DNA of 64,000 bases from NCBI GenBank assembly GCA_017427265.1, contig JAFRTG010000021.1, positions 186,001-250,000 of the forward strand, in the 5' to 3' direction. This DNA comes from Oscillospiraceae bacterium. Its GTDB lineage: Bacteria > Bacillota > Clostridia > Oscillospirales > Ruminococcaceae. Position numbers and translations under genes: made by a program. Under the pieces are notes generated by a model. That model was given only the letters and a program-made list of their open reading frames with translations, did not search any database and was not told where the DNA came from. Each line of letters opens with the position of its first letter. The stretch's first letter is position 1. This document shows positions 6,565-32,837 of the stretch, piece by piece.

Positions 6565-6638
6565 TAGAATTGCCTCTCTTTCTGCAGATTCCACGGGGAA
6601 TCATGCGTTTCTTTTTCGGGATATACCCATACAGATTC

Positions 6639-6667
6639 AGTATACGCGAAACGCTGCAAAAAGTCAA
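6639..6667 (-). promoter_or_regulatory. Sigma-A promoter for rnj operon
   Basis: On the minus strand TTGACT, 17 nt and TATACT are seen about 75 nt upstream of the rnj start. It diverges from the GH53 promoter at 6850-6878. The rest of the 374-nt gap between the two genes shows nothing else recognisable. Confidence 0.75.
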
Positions 6668-6849
6668 GTCAAAAATACAATCCCGCACGGATTTTCGGAA
6701 TCTCCTGCAAAAAAGCGGACGAATTCGCGCGGATTTTGTAGCCTTCTGCCGTTTCCCGTCATATTGCACAAAACAGCCCGAAAAGACATGCAGAATGCTG
6801 TTTCCGTTGCTGCATCGCACAATCAAACATCATTTTTTAATTTATGCCA

Positions 6850-6878
6850 TTGTCTTTTTTATTATAGTATGGTATAAT
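6850..6878 (+). promoter_or_regulatory. Sigma-A promoter for GH53 galactanase
   Basis: TTGTCT, 17 nt and a perfect TATAAT lie about 60 nt upstream of the start codon at 6939. A strong AGGGGG ribosome site sits 8 nt before that start. Confidence 0.75.
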
Positions 6879-6938
6879 GCAGAAAAGAGGCCGCACGGCT
6901 TTTCCGGCCTCGAAGCGAAATATACAGGGGGATACATT

Positions 6939-9038
6939 ATGAAACCGACTGCACTGCTTTCCGTCCTGACGGCAGCTGTTATGCTCGCGGGCAGCTTGCG
7001 CCTGCTGCCTGTACAGACAGTCTGTGCTGCTAAGCCCGTTGTTTTTACGGGCATTTCAGGACTGCCGTTTGAAAACGGCGAACCGTTCAAGGGCGCCGAT
7101 GTTTCTTCTGTCATTGCGCTGGAACAGAGCGGCGTCCGCTTCTATGACAGCAGCGGAAACGAGCAGGATATTTTTGTCACACTGAAGGATGCGGGCGTCA
7201 ACTGCATCCGCGTGCGCATCTGGAACGACCCGACTGCATCGGGCTCCGGCATCACCTACGGCGGCGGCGCCAATGACGCTGCCCATGCCGAAGCAATCGC
7301 TGAGCGCTGTGCAGCAGCAGGTCTCAAGCTGTTTGCCGATTTCCATTATTCGGATTTCTGGGCGGATCCCGGAAAGCAGCGTGCGCCGAAGGCATGGGCA
7401 AATTATTCCGTCAGCCAGAAGGCGGATGCGATCTATCAGTTCACATCCGAAACGCTGCAGAAGCTCAAAAAAACAGGCGTTGACATCGCAATGGTGCAGA
7501 TCGGCAACGAGACGAACAACGGTATGTGCGGCGTGATGCTCGCGGACGGCAACTGGGGCGACGCGGTCTGGAACGATCTTGCACAGCTCTGGAACGCCGG
7601 TTCAAAGGCTGTCCGCGATTTTGACGGGGATGTGCTGGTCGCACTGCATTTCACCAATCCCGAAAAGGCATCCAATATGCAGTATCTTGCGAAAATGCTG
7701 AACCAGACGCATGTCGATTATGATGTCTTTGCGACCTCCTATTATCCATACTGGCACGGCACACTCAGCAACCTGACTTCCGTGCTCGGCAGCATCGCAA
7801 GAACCTACGGCAAAAAAACGCTGGTCGCGGAGACCTCGTGGGCCTATACGTTCCTGAATTATGATTACGGGCCGAATACCATCTCCCAAATGGCGGATCT
7901 CGGCGGTGCGGATTATGATGTCAGCGCAGACGGCCAGACGGAATATCTGACGGATCTGTTCCGCGCTGTTGCAAACGTGCCGGACGGCATGGGCATCGGT
8001 GCATTTTACTGGGAACCGGCATGGCTGCCCGTCAGCAGAGATTATCAGACTGCCGCGAAGCTCTGGAAGGAATACGGCGGCGGCTGGGCATACGAGGCGG
8101 CACAGGAATATGACCCCGACGCGAAGGACGCAGGCGGCTCCGGCTGGGATAATCAGGCACTTTTCAGCGAGGACGGCAAACCGCTCAGCTCGCTCTATGT
8201 ATTCCGCAATATCACCGGCAGCACCGCGCCGGAACAGCCGGAAATCAAAACCGGAAAGAATCTGCTGCAGAATCCCGGCTTTGAGGCCGACGGCGGATGG
8301 TCAGACCGCCCGACAGGCTGGACACTGCACAGCACCGCAGCCGACCATTTCGACGTCCGTGCAGAGGATGTCCGCTCAGGCAGCTATGCGCTGCACTGGT
8401 ACTCGAAAACAGCGTTTTCCGGCAGCTATGCGGAAACGACTGTCCGCGCAGCAGAGTCAGGAACCTATCGCTGCACGCTTGCACTGCAGGCAGATGAGTC
8501 TGCAAGCTATACCGTGACCGCGGAAACATCGGGCGGCAAGCGGGAAACCGTCAGCGGAAAAGGGCAGGGCTGGAGCCAGTGGATGTATCCGGAGCTGAAT
8601 GCCGAGGCGGCAGCCGGTGAAACAATTACGCTGCGGATTACGGTTTCCGGCGGCGACGGCACCTACGGCTCTGTGGATGACTGCAGCATCGCAGCGGTCA
8701 TTCCCGCAGAAACGCAGCCCCTCACGACGACAGTCTCCTCGACAACCGAAACAGAACCGACGACAACCTCAACCACAGCGACTGCGGTTTCCGTCACGGA
8801 GACAAGCACCGCAGAATCCACAGAACCGCCCGCATTCTGCATCGGAGATGCAACACTCGACGGCATCGCAGACGTATCAGACTGTGTTCTGATCCTGCGC
8901 TTTTGTTCCGGTGATACAGAGGCCTCCATCACGGATACCGGCAAACGGAATGCCGACTGCAATCATGACGGCAATCTGAACGACGACGATGCAGCGCTCC
9001 TGCTGCGTGCGATTGCCAAGCTGACCGTGCTGGAATGA
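6939..9038 (+). CDS. Secreted arabinogalactan endo-beta-1,4-galactanase, GH53 with C-terminal dockerin
   Basis: GH53 enzymes cut beta-1,4-galactan side chains of pectin. The 699-residue product has a signal peptide (1 to about 31), a GH53 catalytic domain (about 33-395), a beta-sandwich region beginning NLLQNPGFEADGGW that resembles the galactan-binding CBM61 modules of GH53 enzymes (about 430-585), a Thr/Ser linker, and a dockerin (about 635-699) with two calcium-loop repeats. Predicted acid/base is E191 in the GNE motif and the nucleophile E298 in VAETSW. The dockerin implies display on a cellulosome through a cohesin scaffold, which is not in this window. The start was set at 6939 from the ribosome site and signal peptide; upstream in-frame codons are untranslated leader. 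Confidence 0.93.
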   Translation: MKPTALLSVLTAAVMLAGSLRLLPVQTVCAAKPVVFTGISGLPFENGEPFKGADVSSVIALEQSGVRFYDSSGNEQDIFVTLKDAGVNCIRVRIWNDPTASGSGITYGGGANDAAHAEAIAERCAAAGLKLFADFHYSDFWADPGKQRAPKAWANYSVSQKADAIYQFTSETLQKLKKTGVDIAMVQIGNETNNGMCGVMLADGNWGDAVWNDLAQLWNAGSKAVRDFDGDVLVALHFTNPEKASNMQYLAKMLNQTHVDYDVFATSYYPYWHGTLSNLTSVLGSIARTYGKKTLVAETSWAYTFLNYDYGPNTISQMADLGGADYDVSADGQTEYLTDLFRAVANVPDGMGIGAFYWEPAWLPVSRDYQTAAKLWKEYGGGWAYEAAQEYDPDAKDAGGSGWDNQALFSEDGKPLSSLYVFRNITGSTAPEQPEIKTGKNLLQNPGFEADGGWSDRPTGWTLHSTAADHFDVRAEDVRSGSYALHWYSKTAFSGSYAETTVRAAESGTYRCTLALQADESASYTVTAETSGGKRETVSGKGQGWSQWMYPELNAEAAAGETITLRITVSGGDGTYGSVDDCSIAAVIPAETQPLTTTVSSTTETEPTTTSTTATAVSVTETSTAESTEPPAFCIGDATLDGIADVSDCVLILRFCSGDTEASITDTGKRNADCNHDGNLNDDDAALLLRAIAKLTVLE

Positions 9039-9053: not shown

Positions 9054-9509
9054 TCAGTCCGGCGTGATGTGTTCTGTCTCCGGCGGACGGTGCAGCAGCA
9101 GCGGAAGCAGTGCTGCACGCTCCCGCACCGCAAACAGCCGGTGTGAACGCCCGTGCGGTACCGGCGGACGGGTATTGACCCCGCAGATTCCGCCGAGCAT
9201 TCCGGCCGGAACAGCAGGCAGCAGCAGAACAGGCGCCTGCAGATGCTCCTGCCGGAAGCAGAGGAACAGGAACCACATCGCAGTCAGACAGCACGCGGCA
9301 GCGATGCCGCAGCGTATTCCGCCGTGCCTGCTGCGTTTTCCTGCGCAGCAGCCGGAAACAAAGCAGCCGCAAAGCAGCGGGACTGCCGCAAAAACGGGAT
9401 ACAGCCGCAGCGGAAGCTCCACAGCCGTCAGCAGAGCCGCTGTGCCGAGCATTCCGGCTGCCGAAACAGGAACGCCTGCCAGAATACAGGCGCGCAGAAC
9501 AGTTCGCAT
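9054..9509 (-). CDS. Small membrane protein, TIGR04086-like
   Basis: A 151-residue protein with four hydrophobic segments within residues 1-115, typical of the small TIGR04086/YrzE-type membrane proteins of Firmicutes. That match is from memory of layout, not a clear motif. A Gly-rich AGMLGGICG turn marks the last membrane segment; a basic tail follows. The ATG at 9509 is preceded by GGGAGGG with good spacing. The gene diverges from the Spo0A paralogue, and two 0A-box-like sites lie in the shared gap. Its stop lies 16 nt from that of the convergent GH53 gene. Function is unknown. Confidence 0.7.
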   Translation of the reverse strand: MRTVLRACILAGVPVSAAGMLGTAALLTAVELPLRLYPVFAAVPLLCGCFVSGCCAGKRSRHGGIRCGIAAACCLTAMWFLFLCFRQEHLQAPVLLLPAVPAGMLGGICGVNTRPPVPHGRSHRLFAVRERAALLPLLLHRPPETEHITPD

Positions 9510-9605
9510 TTTAATCCCTCCCCGCAGCATTTTATGCATTTATTTTCCGCTTCATGCAGCTTAAAAACAATCTCAAAACTTCGTAAATACGGCATTACGA
9601 TTCTG

Positions 9606-9622
9606 CTCGACAGAATTCGACA
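9606..9622 (-). promoter_or_regulatory. Two tandem Spo0A-box-like sites
   Basis: On the minus strand TGTCGAA (9622-9616) and TGTCGAG (9612-9606) occur in direct repeat with starts exactly 10 bp apart. The Bacillus 0A box is TGTCGAA, and tandem boxes at 10-bp period are how Spo0A dimers bind. They lie between two divergent genes, about 40 bp upstream of the -35 of the Spo0A paralogue. Confidence 0.6.
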
Positions 9623-9661
9623 ATATTCGTACCATTTTTTCTTTGTTTTCTGCTTGCCGGG

Positions 9662-9690
9662 TTGATTCCGCGTTTTTCGTTTGCTATAAT
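9662..9690 (+). promoter_or_regulatory. Sigma-A promoter for Spo0A paralogue
   Basis: TTGATT, 17 nt and a perfect TATAAT with an upstream TGC. The start codon at 9741 has AAGGAGAT at proper spacing. Confidence 0.8.
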
Positions 9691-9740
9691 GGGCATACCG
9701 AAATATAAAACGCACTACAAAACCAAGGAGATATAAAGAA

Positions 9741-10484
9741 ATGGACAAGCAAAACCGTATTTTAATAGGGGACATAGGGGATCAGTTCGCAGTCAATGCA
9801 GCCTTTGCATTCCGGAAGGCCGGTGACTGGGCTGTCACACGCCGCCAGACGCATGAGGACATGCTGCGCTCACTCCGGTACGAGCATCCGGATGTTCTGA
9901 TCCTGAATCTGACCGTTCCGACCATGCATTTTCCGCATTTTGCCGAAAACGTGCTGCAGCTCTCGGATATCGAGATCGTGGCGCTGTTTCAGAAGAAGGA
10001 TCCGTATATGGAACGGCTGCTTTCTCAGCAGAATGTACACTGCATCAAATTCCCGGCGGACGGTTCCTCACTTGTCAGGGAGACGCACAGGATCTGCGGA
10101 CTTTCTGCCTCACATGCGCAGGATTATCCGACGGAGGATCCGGAGGTCGAGGTGACAAAGCTGCTCAGGAGCTTCGGGATTCCGGCCAATCTCCGCGGTT
10201 TCTATTATCTTCGCACAGCAATTCTCATTGCGGTGCAGAAGCCGAGCTGCAGCGGCATCATGATGAACCAGATCTATCCGGCTGTTGCGCAGGAGCTGCA
10301 CAGTACGCCGGCCCGCGTTGAGCGCGGCATCCGGCATGCGATCCTGCAGGCATGGGAGAATAACAACGGCTGTTTTAATATGTATTTCGGACCGGCGAGC
10401 AACCGCCGCATGACCAATTCCGAGTTCATTGCCTTTACTGTTGACTGGATCCGCACGGAGCGTGCCAGCAAGCTCTGCGGATAA
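9741..10484 (+). CDS. Spo0A-like regulator with a degenerate, non-phosphorylatable receiver domain
   Basis: The 247-residue product aligns by eye along its whole length with the canonical Spo0A encoded at 29334-30089. The C-terminal DNA-binding domain keeps the key pattern: IPANLRGFYYLRTAI, the recognition-helix region STPARVERGIRHAI and TNSEFIAF. The receiver domain has lost its chemistry. The acidic pair is D11-I12 instead of DD, the phosphoacceptor Asp56 is Asn56 (LILNL), the Lys before the conserved Pro is Phe104, and the Thr/Ser switch position is Ala or Leu. It should therefore not be activated by a standard phosphorelay. It probably binds 0A-type sites, perhaps including the tandem boxes upstream of itself. 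A hairpin follows at 10523-10554. Confidence 0.85.
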   Translation: MDKQNRILIGDIGDQFAVNAAFAFRKAGDWAVTRRQTHEDMLRSLRYEHPDVLILNLTVPTMHFPHFAENVLQLSDIEIVALFQKKDPYMERLLSQQNVHCIKFPADGSSLVRETHRICGLSASHAQDYPTEDPEVEVTKLLRSFGIPANLRGFYYLRTAILIAVQKPSCSGIMMNQIYPAVAQELHSTPARVERGIRHAILQAWENNNGCFNMYFGPASNRRMTNSEFIAFTVDWIRTERASKLCG

Positions 10485-10522: not shown

Positions 10523-10554
10523 TGCCCCGAAGCAATTTGAAGCGCTTCGGGGCA
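10523..10554 (+). terminator. Terminator-like hairpin after the Spo0A paralogue
   Basis: TGCCCCGAAG and CTTCGGGGCA form a perfect 10-bp stem with a 12-nt loop. Only a weak T tract follows, so efficiency is uncertain. The remaining gap to 10828 is A+T-rich and holds no clear promoter; a GCGGG/CCCGC hairpin at 10802-10816 touches the next ribosome site. Confidence 0.6.
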
Positions 10555-29333: not shown

Positions 29334-30089
29334 TCAGTGCTGATGCTGCAAACGCAGCTTGTCTGTGATAAGCGCGATGAATTCCGAATTGGTCGGCTTG
29401 CCCTTGCAGGTGTTGACCGTATAGCCGAAGAACGCATTCAGCGTGTCCAGATTGCCGCGGTCCCACGCAATCTCGATTGCATGGCGGATCGCGCGCTCGA
29501 CTCTGGAGGGCGTTGTCCCGAACTGTGAAGCAACACGCGGATAAAGCTGCTTTGTGACGCTGTCGAGCAGCTCCGGCTCATGATAGGCGCTGACGATTGC
29601 GCAGCGCAGATAATGATAGCCCTTGATATGTGCGGGGACGCCCAGCTGATGAATGATGTCCGTGATCGTGATGGCAAGATCCTGTCCGGCACGGTTTGCG
29701 AGTGCGCCGAGCGGCTGCTTGCTTGTCAGCAAAGCGATGCGTTCGCCGAGGACGTTGAGGTCAAACGGCTTCAGCATGAAATATGCGGCGCCGTTCTGCA
29801 TGACCTGCTGCTCGACAAAGCTGTTGTCATAGGATGATGTAACGATAAACGCCGGGCGCTTTCCGCCGGACGCATTGGCCTTTTTCATCAGCTCGATGGC
29901 ATCCATATGCGGCAGAACGGCGTCCACCACAACCACATCCGGCGTATCATTCCGAATGGACTCCAGAACGGTATTGCCGTTCTTTGGTCTTGTATAAGCG
30001 TACATACCCTGTGCACGCAGGACACTGGCACAGGATACGCCGTACTCTGCCGTGTCATCACCGATCAGAACCTTGACTTGCTTTTGCAT
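29334..30089 (-). CDS. spo0A: Sporulation master regulator Spo0A
   Basis: The 251-residue protein is a canonical Spo0A. Its receiver domain has D11-D12, phosphoacceptor D56 in VVVDAVLP, T84/S85 and K107 before P108. The C-terminal domain has [14 protein letters not shown], the recognition region [18 protein letters not shown] and [17 protein letters not shown], almost identical in these blocks to Bacillus Spo0A. It activates or represses genes with 0A boxes after phosphorylation. ATG 30089 follows AAAGGAGG. A promoter lies at 30119-30147 and an 0A-like TGTCGAG at 30178-30184. spoIVB, its usual neighbour, lies 1.5 kb away in divergent orientation, with two unknown genes in between. Confidence 0.97.
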
Positions 30090-30754: not shown

Positions 30755-31435
30755 TCAGAGATCCGTCAGAAAGACAACCGGAATCTGTTTGCGTTCCAGC
30801 TTATAGCGCTGGATTTTTGTCAGCGGCACCTGATAATGCCGTGTCGATTTCCGGAACGCACCGGATACGATCCGCCCGTGCAGCGCATGGAGAAAGGCCA
30901 TCTCCTCGGTGCCGAGCGCACGGCTGTCGTTTTCGAGATAATGATAGCCGCCCGCAAGATAGAAAATCTCAAGCGCGATGGAAAGATCACATGCAGGCTC
31001 CGAGAGGATCCTGCGCGGCAGCTGCAGACCGTTCTGCCACTGATGCGAACGCAGCAGCTGATCGAGTCTTGCAAGCGAGCAGCCGCTCTGCGGCGGAAAG
31101 CAGTCATGAGCAAGATAATAGTTCAGCGATTCGGTGAGCGACTGCGCATCGCCCTCCTCCCCGCGTGAGAGCATCTCCGAAACGACATCGCAAAGCAGCT
31201 CATCGGAAACGTAGGCACACATTCCGTGCTGCAGCGCGTCAGCAGGGAGCGTTTCGCTGTTATCTCCGTCCGCTGCAGGGTAATCTGCCGGATAGCAGGG
31301 CGTTTCGGCGGTATATGCGGCATCTCCGGCGGTATACATGCACCATTCGCCGGATACCGTCTCTCCGCTGCGGAGTACGGCATCACGCAGATTTGTCAGC
31401 AGTGCGCCGACGGTTGTCATTCTGTATTTTTCCAT
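30755..31435 (-). CDS. Protein of unknown function
   Basis: A 226-residue soluble protein without signal peptide or membrane segment. It is rich in Tyr, Ala and Leu. The middle has SDELLCDVVSEMLSRGEEGD and a YYLAHDCFPPQSG block, and the basic C terminus reads YQVPLTKIQRYKLERK. I do not recognise the family. ATG 31435 is preceded by GGAGGAAGG. It diverges from spoIVB and is followed 2 nt later by a membrane protein gene, so the pair may act together. Confidence 0.65.
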   Translation of the reverse strand: MEKYRMTTVGALLTNLRDAVLRSGETVSGEWCMYTAGDAAYTAETPCYPADYPAADGDNSETLPADALQHGMCAYVSDELLCDVVSEMLSRGEEGDAQSLTESLNYYLAHDCFPPQSGCSLARLDQLLRSHQWQNGLQLPRRILSEPACDLSIALEIFYLAGGYHYLENDSRALGTEEMAFLHALHGRIVSGAFRKSTRHYQVPLTKIQRYKLERKQIPVVFLTDL

Positions 31436-31586
31436 ATCCTTCCTCCGTTGCCTCTTTCTGCCGGTACACATTCCGGAAAAGAATCTGCCTGCAATTTTGC
31501 TGCTTGAACGGCAGAAAACTGCGCATAATGATTCTGTGCGGGAATCAGCAAAAGAATTCGGAACCGCAGAGAGAGGAAGATCGCAG

Positions 31587-32837
31587 ATGAAATTTCCGCA
31601 GAAATGGATTTCTAAAATTGCAGCCTGTACGGCCGCATTGCTGCTTGGAACCGCCGCAGCTGTGCAGCATTATATGCTCAGTCTGCCGGATCATTTTTAT
31701 ACGGATGCAAACAGACCGCCGGCTGCCGCGACGCTTCTGCCGGTGACGTTTGTGCGCAGTACCCCGGCGCTGCCGCAGGGCGGCGAAGCGGAGCTGCGTC
31801 TGTTCGGCCTGATTCCGGTCAAAAAGGTCTCCCTGACGACGGTCAGCGCCGCCGAGGTTTATCTGGGCGGCGAACCGTTCGGCATCAAAATGCTGATGGC
31901 GGGTGTCATGGTCATCTCACTGAACGGCGTGCCGGGTCTTGCAGGAGATGTCTGCCCGGCAAAGGAAGCGGGCATCCGCACCGGAGATATTATTCAGGCG
32001 GTGAACGGACAGCGCATCGGGAGCAATGCCGATTTACAGGCCGCAGTGGAATCGTCCGGCGGCAGCACGGTTGCGGTCAGCTATCAGCGCGGCGACAGTC
32101 TTGAAACAGCCGCAGTATCGCCGGTTTTCTCGCCGGTGACAAAGCGCTGGCAGACGGGCATGTGGGTGCGGGACAGCACAGCAGGAATCGGCACCGTCAC
32201 ATATTATATGCGCAATTCGGCCGGACAGGTCAGCTTTGCGGGACTCGGACATGCGGTCTGCGATGCAGACACGGGCGAACCGATTCCGCTTGCTTCCGGC
32301 GATGTGATTGCAGTTTCGGTCAATGACATCATCAGCGGCCGTGCCGGAGAACCCGGCGAGCTGCGCGGCCGGTTCGAGCCCGGCAGAAGCATCGGCAGAC
32401 TGCTTGCGAATACGCCCAGCGGCATATTCGGCACACTGGATGCGCTGCCCGCGGAGGCGAAGCGCATTCCGCTCGGATTCCGGCAGGATATCACCCGCGG
32501 CGAAGCGCTGATTTACACCACAATCGACGGCACGGCGCCGCAGGCGTTCACCGCGGAGATCGAGGAGATCCGCGGCAATGACGCCTCTCTGCGCGATCTG
32601 GTCATCCGCGTGACGGATCCCGCGCTGCTGGAAGCCGCCGGCGGCATTGTGCAGGGCATGAGCGGCAGCCCGATCGTGCAGAACGGCCGGATGATCGGCG
32701 CGGTTACGCATGTGTTCGTCCGTGACCCGACACGGGGCTACGGCATCTTCGCAGAGCACATGTACGCGCAGACAGCCGCGCTTGCGGACGCCGTGCCGGA
32801 GGAGCATCTTGCAGCAGCCTTCCGGCCGGCATCATAA
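31587..32837 (+). CDS. spoIVB: SpoIVB-type serine peptidase (S55) with PDZ domain
   Basis: SpoIVB is secreted from the forespore and cleaves SpoIVFA to release activation of sigma-K. The 416-residue product has one N-terminal membrane segment (about 8-32), a PDZ domain (about 100-180; VCPAKEAGIRTGDIIQAVNG) and the S55 peptidase domain with the His site GLGHAV and the Ser site GMSGSPIVQNG. All sites look intact. ATG 31587 follows GAGAGGAAGA. In Bacillus spoIVB lies directly before spo0A; here it diverges from a two-gene unit next to spo0A. A bidirectional terminator follows. Confidence 0.92.
   Translation: MKFPQKWISKIAACTAALLLGTAAAVQHYMLSLPDHFYTDANRPPAAATLLPVTFVRSTPALPQGGEAELRLFGLIPVKKVSLTTVSAAEVYLGGEPFGIKMLMAGVMVISLNGVPGLAGDVCPAKEAGIRTGDIIQAVNGQRIGSNADLQAAVESSGGSTVAVSYQRGDSLETAAVSPVFSPVTKRWQTGMWVRDSTAGIGTVTYYMRNSAGQVSFAGLGHAVCDADTGEPIPLASGDVIAVSVNDIISGRAGEPGELRGRFEPGRSIGRLLANTPSGIFGTLDALPAEAKRIPLGFRQDITRGEALIYTTIDGTAPQAFTAEIEEIRGNDASLRDLVIRVTDPALLEAAGGIVQGMSGSPIVQNGRMIGAVTHVFVRDPTRGYGIFAEHMYAQTAALADAVPEEHLAAAFRPAS

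Follow-up and report, generated by a model that had tools for sequence, protein, structure and literature searches.

Spo0A is commonly regarded as the one unambiguous master regulator, for which the Spo0A_C domain serves as a mark. ChxR, HP1043 and NblR are atypical or pseudo-receiver response regulators, the outputs of which are of the OmpR or NarL type. To our knowledge, sporulation control has been little studied in rumen and gut bacteria. The relevant passages of PMC6136694 use Spo0A_C to find Spo0A; those of PMC3485338 give TGTCGAA as the core 0A box and describe loss of the receiver's inhibition as bypassing phosphorylation; and those of PMC10294663 report phages that carry a Spo0A reduced to the DNA-binding domain, which is proposed to bypass host signals and to act on sporulation. 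Among the open PubMed Central papers listed, none was recognized on a conserved Spo0A paralog with a dead receiver.

The protein encoded at 9741–10484 (plus strand, 247 aa) of the window, i.e., the whole stretch of 64,000 nucleotides from an Oscillospiraceae bacterium that was analyzed here, appears to be such a paralog. It consists of a degenerate receiver (residues about 1–118), a variable linker (about 119–136) and a Spo0A_C DNA-binding domain (138–237). The Pfam Spo0A_C profile (PF08769) matches it with 95 bits against a cut-off of 25, in agreement with the initial annotation, in which the Spo0A DNA-binding domain was said to be kept. The N-terminal half reaches a Pfam receiver score of 14.6 bits, under the cut-off of 30.2, and TIGR02875 yields 94.1 bits against a cut-off of 200, with the DNA-binding half only. 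The canonical Spo0A that had been proposed for 29334–30089 is confirmed and lies on the minus strand (251 aa; TIGR02875, 259.6 bits over the cut-off of 200), with GDD, D56, T84, K107 and FGYT complete. Aligned with it, the paralog has GDI for GDD (the Ile occupies the place of the second acidic residue), Asn at the position of Asp56, Leu at that of Thr84, and Phe at that of Lys107, with the next Pro retained; this alignment bears out the three changes named in the initial annotation, namely Asn56, the missing acidic residue and Phe at the switch Lys. The paralog thus lacks the full set of residues of a phosphorylatable receiver (acid pair, D56, T84, K107), and its receiver is predicted from these residues to have lost the phosphorylation switch.

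The paralog has in common with canonical Spo0A (TIGR02875; B. subtilis, C. difficile) the two-domain layout, Spo0A_C, the recognition-helix motif and 0A-type boxes, but it lacks the phosphorylation switch and the FGYT segment and falls under the equivalog cut-off. As in ChxR, HP1043 and NblR, the phosphoacceptor pocket is lost and a receiver region is retained next to a DNA-binding output; in contrast to them, the output is Spo0A_C and a phosphorylatable canonical Spo0A is present alongside. The pattern expected of a pseudo-receiver, with phosphorylation residues lost across orthologs and the receiver still constrained, is what is found here. With the truncated phage Spo0A, as described in the passages of PMC10294663, the paralog shares a Spo0A DNA-binding domain free of phosphate control; the phage form, however, has no receiver, whereas the paralog has a receiver-length region, conserved and altered, together with a conserved chromosomal neighborhood and a tandem operator of its own. 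The paralog is matched by 13 phage records, all with less than 40% identity; on the grounds of this low identity and of the chromosomal neighborhood, a phage origin of the gene was rejected.

A search of 30 genomes of the genus, including that of the window, detects at least one Spo0A_C match in 28 and a canonical-grade match (E 1.5e-43 or better) in 27. The resulting 28 canonical sequences (one genome gives two, one of them cut, and the sequence of another genome is cut at the start) all retain Asp56 and Lys107, and each, the two cut ones included, is at least 89% identical to that of the window in each domain. Most of the other Spo0A_C matches were retrieved and grouped by sequence; one of the weakest, under the Pfam cut-off, was left out, and a further one was included subsequently. 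According to this grouping of our own, orthologs of the paralog are present in 20 of the 30 genomes (alignment A1, 20 sequences, with the protein of the window included). In the other 10 genomes, some of them incomplete, no such ortholog is found, so the paralog may be dispensable. A canonical Spo0A accompanies the ortholog in 19 of the 20 genomes, the exception (G025) being 75% complete. The genus includes Oscillospiraceae bacterium RGIG7982, which comes from water-buffalo rumen. An A1 profile search of 197 genomes, which represent 125 genera of the family and include three genomes of this genus, gives no score above 188 bits outside the genus, compared with 390 bits for the paralog of the window and 180 bits for its canonical Spo0A; matches are listed down to about 121 bits, and weak orthologs outside the genus may lie below this limit. 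A scan of genome contigs contains at least one close ortholog (L083) among the matches listed, which is the same DNA as L052 of genome G016.

The other 19 orthologs are 36–77% identical to the paralog of the window. Position 56 is Asn in 16 of the 20 sequences, Asp in three and Ile in one, so the orthologs for which the initial annotation had called do exist beyond the strain, mostly in the Asn56 form. The equivalents of Thr84 and Lys107 are lost in all 20 and the second acidic Asp in 19, with one retaining it. W30, R34, H49 and D51 are invariant in all 20 receivers and P105 is nearly so; the DNA-binding domain invariably has V193, E194, I197 and R198 of the VERxIR motif, and PF08769 matches every member. 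A profile comparison relates the A1 DNA-binding domain to the solved Spo0A domains 1lq1 and 1fc3 (about 3e-30) and the ortholog profile to the receiver 1nxo (1.8e-7); the Pfam receiver profile matches 9 of the 20 members at E 0.1. Nei-Gojobori estimates of dN/dS over 10 ortholog pairs are 0.01–0.24 for the receiver and 0–0.18 for the DNA-binding domain, and 0.17–0.89 for the linker in the nine computable pairs; dS exceeds 1 in some pairs, so that the ratios of the wider pairs are rough. The altered receiver is under purifying selection, that is, it is being kept. No stop codon occurs within the matches of the orthologs in the 30 genomes searched.

A further difference concerns the FGYT segment, which presumably lies within the part of Spo0A_C that contacts sigma-A (residues 227–240 in B. 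subtilis). FGYT is absent from all 20 orthologs. It is present in 27 of the 28 canonical Spo0A sequences of the genus, the 28th being cut by the contig end, and in 71 of 80 receiver-bearing Spo0A_C proteins from named loci (L083 excluded). This complete loss adds a point to the idea, put forward in the initial annotation, that the protein is a competitor of canonical Spo0A.

Analysis of the genomic context reveals a divergent gene for a TIGR04086-family membrane protein at 9054–9509 (minus strand; 41.9 bits over the cut-off of 30). Its likely start, judged by eye, is the ATG at 9509 behind GGAGGG; a longer ORF begins at 9539. A TIGR04086-like gene stands divergently beside the ortholog in 16 of the 20 loci and is adjacent on the same strand in L053; at L056, L060 and L071, no such neighbor was found. 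The orthology of these four loci is less sure, given the divergence and the missing neighbor gene of L056, L060 and L071 and the reoriented neighbor of L053. Other neighbors of the paralog are PAQR and ECF sigma genes and, by eye, RNase J- and GH53-like ORFs. The GH53-like (endo-galactanase) ORF at 6570–9038 (plus strand) has, by eye, a dockerin-like C-terminus, which suggests a possible fiber degrader of the cellulosome type. A CATAnnnT-like element, which we take to be reminiscent of sporulation sigma −10 motifs, is seen by eye before the divergent TIGR04086 gene (9510–9605, minus strand, in the window) and in many orthologous loci. A hairpin at 10523–10554 was considered as the terminator of the paralog gene and rejected, its terminator-like score being on the minus strand only.

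Two TGTCGAR sites 10 bp apart had been noticed upstream of the paralog gene, and they are indeed found, on the minus strand of 9606–9622. These putative 0A-like boxes, TGTCGAG (box 1, 9606–9612) and TGTCGAA (box 2, 9616–9622), have starts 10 bp apart and read CTCGACA-GAA-TTCGACA on the plus strand. The tandem is centered at about −84 relative to the predicted transcription start site, the predicted sigma-A promoter being located at 9662–9690 (plus strand; TTGATT-N17-TATAAT, with TG before the −10 hexamer and 10 of 12 consensus bases). In the genome of 3,822,299 bases, the exact pattern YTCGACANNNYTCGACA (YTCGACA-N3-YTCGACA) has a single site, this one, and none when read backwards. Looser patterns reach chance level: YTCGNCANNNTTCGACA has one site in this genome and one for the backwards control, and the single match obtained in the 64-kb window with two mismatches allowed equals the chance mean (0.99). 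The case for a tandem above chance therefore rests on the exact genome-wide match and on conservation in relatives; by this uniqueness and by the conservation upstream of orthologs, the possibility of chance boxes was rejected. Within the 250 bp upstream of each ortholog, the best tandem has 0–2 mismatches in 17 of the 20 regions, which is the case for 0.15% of 2000 dinucleotide shuffles and for 1 of 24 regions upstream of canonical spo0A. Weaker best tandems are those of L043 (three mismatches) and of L053 and L071 (four and six, no convincing tandem). All the best tandems at orthologs share one reading direction. At loci L040, L052, L030 and L043, the place of a perfect tandem is taken by a pair of good single boxes, spaced by about 30 bp.

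Promoters were inspected in 19 of the 20 ortholog loci (L071 left out). Hexamers with at most two mismatches from TTGACA and TATAAT, 17–18 bp apart, are present in 18 of these, that of L053 being weaker, and the end of the boxes precedes the −35 hexamer by 20, 30, 39–41, 49–51 or 59 bp in 18 of the 19; the weak tandem of L053 ends 9 bp before it. The distance between boxes and promoter varies, and the helical face is constant. For nine hand-picked subgroup representatives, including L053, a Rayleigh test that was chosen after the spacing had been seen gives p of about 9e-4 at a period of 10, 0.006 at 10.5 and 0.07 at 11; no signal appears at periods of 7, 8 and 13 in the same nine. Over the 30 genomes, YTCGNCANNNTTCGACA has 22 sites, compared with 8 for the backwards control: nine upstream of A1 genes, three upstream of Spo0A_C-like genes of about 110 aa, one upstream of an ORF with weak similarity to a receiver (15.1 bits, below the cut-off) and nine elsewhere. 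With 12 of the 22 near-perfect tandems beside Spo0A_C genes, the pattern is concentrated at Spo0A-family genes, the nine sites elsewhere being at the level of the control. The gene spoIIGA is a classical Spo0A target. In 14 of 24 loci (a raw count that includes the genome of the window), TTCGACA with at most one mismatch lies 58–61 bp before the YLDVLL codons of spoIIGA; from this fixed place, the sequence is very probably the Spo0A box of the genus. Single boxes prevail upstream of spoIIGA, where 2 of 24 regions contain a tandem of at most three mismatches.

The initial annotation held that the sporulation genes of this organism look decayed, and this view finds no support: SpoIVA, SpoIIR, SpoIIGA and SpoIVB, the four families searched, are all present in the genome of the window. 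SpoIVB is encoded in the window itself, at 31338–32837 (plus strand; TIGR02860, 329.6 bits over the cut-off of 305.25), with the match spanning residues 112–478 of the ORF and positions 27–398 of the 402 of the profile. Across the 30 genomes, SpoIVA is found in 26, SpoIIR in 24 and SpoIIGA over the cut-off in 24; genomes G018 and G022 jointly lack Spo0A_C, SpoIVA and SpoIIR.

Taken together, these observations suggest that the genus keeps a phosphate-blind Spo0A twin under a putative Spo0A-type operator of its own. The twin would be a duplicated Spo0A, the receiver of which has turned into a phosphorylation-independent pseudo-receiver; it would bind 0A boxes through the kept recognition helix, would not be switchable by phosphate and would lack the segment thought to touch sigma-A in canonical Spo0A. 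We therefore propose that its main role at 0A boxes is that of an antagonist or occupancy-setter, which would compete for shared sites with Spo0A~P and would feed back on its own gene and on the divergent TIGR04086 gene through the tandem operator. That the protein binds 0A boxes independently of phosphorylation, opposes Spo0A~P and is controlled via its own operator is the most likely reading and, with binding, antagonism and direction of control all deduced from sequence, about an even bet. In the simplest working model, to which we give the same even odds, the protein would act as an antagonist, occupying 0A boxes whatever the state of phosphorylation and setting its own dose. Asp56 kept in three orthologs counts against the antagonist reading, as do the two orthologs without a convincing tandem (L053, L071) and the three mismatches of L043. 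Sporulation in the genus may be steered by two rival proteins instead of one; if the twin opposes Spo0A, these rumen and gut bacteria would carry a built-in brake on spore formation.

Instead of opposing canonical Spo0A, the pseudo-receiver might dimerize with it, or with itself and be always on, and widen or tune the regulon. Purifying selection on a receiver with invariant residues of its own, a tandem operator that would fit a constitutive dimer and the co-occurrence with canonical Spo0A in all but one of the 20 genomes with an ortholog are compatible with such a partner; however, the loss of FGYT in 20 of 20 speaks against direct activation, and no co-change is visible in the 28 highly similar canonical sequences, which leaves this as a possible but unlikely arrangement. 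The same constraint on the receiver, with invariant W30, R34, H49 and D51 and near-invariant P105, could alternatively reflect binding of a small molecule or a protein that gates DNA binding. The only tested neighbor that recurs in most loci, however, is the TIGR04086 membrane protein, and there is no obvious ligand; such a non-phosphate sensor appears distinctly unlikely. As for the operator, phased boxes upstream of a sigma-A-type promoter would suit activation as well as repression, and their position would fit a scheme in which Spo0A~P activates first and feedback comes after. Boxes that serve canonical Spo0A~P only, with the paralog as an ordinary Spo0A-activated gene that has its targets elsewhere, would explain this phasing and an identity in sequence and orientation with the box before spoIIGA, but not the mostly single box of spoIIGA or the concentration of near-perfect tandems at Spo0A-family genes; we regard this as very improbable. 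Finally, the lost switch residues and a divergence greater than that of canonical Spo0A (36–77% identity) might be expected of a pseudogene-like relic on its way out. This reading is refuted in the main by the low dN/dS of both domains in the 10 pairs and by the conserved residues, promoter and operator, along with the matches free of stop codons, and hardly any credence is left for it.

The genus contains further Spo0A_C forms, among them receiver-less proteins and proteins of about 110 aa. The genome of the window encodes a third Spo0A_C protein, without a receiver match (L003, G000:C4:4563-4850), and receiver-less forms occur in part of the genus (L003, L047, L048, L050, L055, L057, L061, L065, L066); their layout resembles that of the truncated phage Spo0A, and seven phage records match a receiver-less Spo0A_C protein. 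Among the other extra proteins, L031, L032, L034 and L049 span the full length and retain more of the canonical residues, and L035, L073 and L074 have other odd receivers. In a quick tree of DNA-binding domains, which contains several long rows, the orthologs group with the receiver-less paralogs, away from canonical Spo0A, on weak branches, and the ortholog group requires three changes. The proteins of about 110 aa (L172:1590-1919, L176:1593-1922, L183:1136-1444) have weak Pfam Spo0A_C matches of 37.1, 25.4 and 23.5 bits, respectively, the last one under the cut-off of 25; an exact TTCGACA-N3-TTCGACA tandem lies just upstream of each of these small genes, in the orientation opposite to that of the paralog. 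Behind another exact tandem 0A box, L170:1601-1924 is a 108-aa ORF that matches a receiver weakly (15.1 bits, below the cut-off) and may encode a Spo0A receiver that stands alone. The antagonist model can be extended to the whole genus as a circuit of two Spo0A proteins. A phosphate-blind and sigma-A-blind Spo0A would then set the sporulation threshold by occupying 0A boxes and would write its own dose via a dedicated tandem operator; it would be one of a larger group of lineage-specific Spo0A offshoots (receiver-less, about 110 aa), part of which would be linked to it through the same tandem operator. This extension is tentative and, as a whole, rather doubtful.

Additional Spo0A_C proteins are a recurrent feature of the wider family, and counting Spo0A_C genes can misjudge the wiring of sporulation. 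At least 55 of 119 genomes of the family have more than one Spo0A_C match, as counted by eye among the matches listed. Twenty additional or unusual Spo0A_C proteins of other genera in the GTDB family (L214–L233), picked by open frame among the matches listed, all lack FGYT by eye; non-canonical Spo0A proteins may commonly be marked by the loss of this segment. All 20 score higher in BLAST with canonical Spo0A than with the paralog; position 56 of the 19 that bear a receiver is Asp in 10, Asn in five and another residue in four, and an upstream tandem with at most two mismatches is found only in L217. Asp is absent from position 56 in 13 of the 80 named Spo0A_C sequences. In Spo0A of other genera, it is replaced by Ser, Gly, Glu, Asn or Pro (L115, L091, L106, L119, L145), with L115 and L091 coming from Ruminococcus flavefaciens. 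Two adjacent Spo0A-like genes are present in L138:486-2138 and L139:4850-6524, from a Lachnospiraceae MAG and a Clostridium-labelled MAG, respectively; the first gene of the pair has Asn56 and no Lys107, the second Asp56 and no Lys107.
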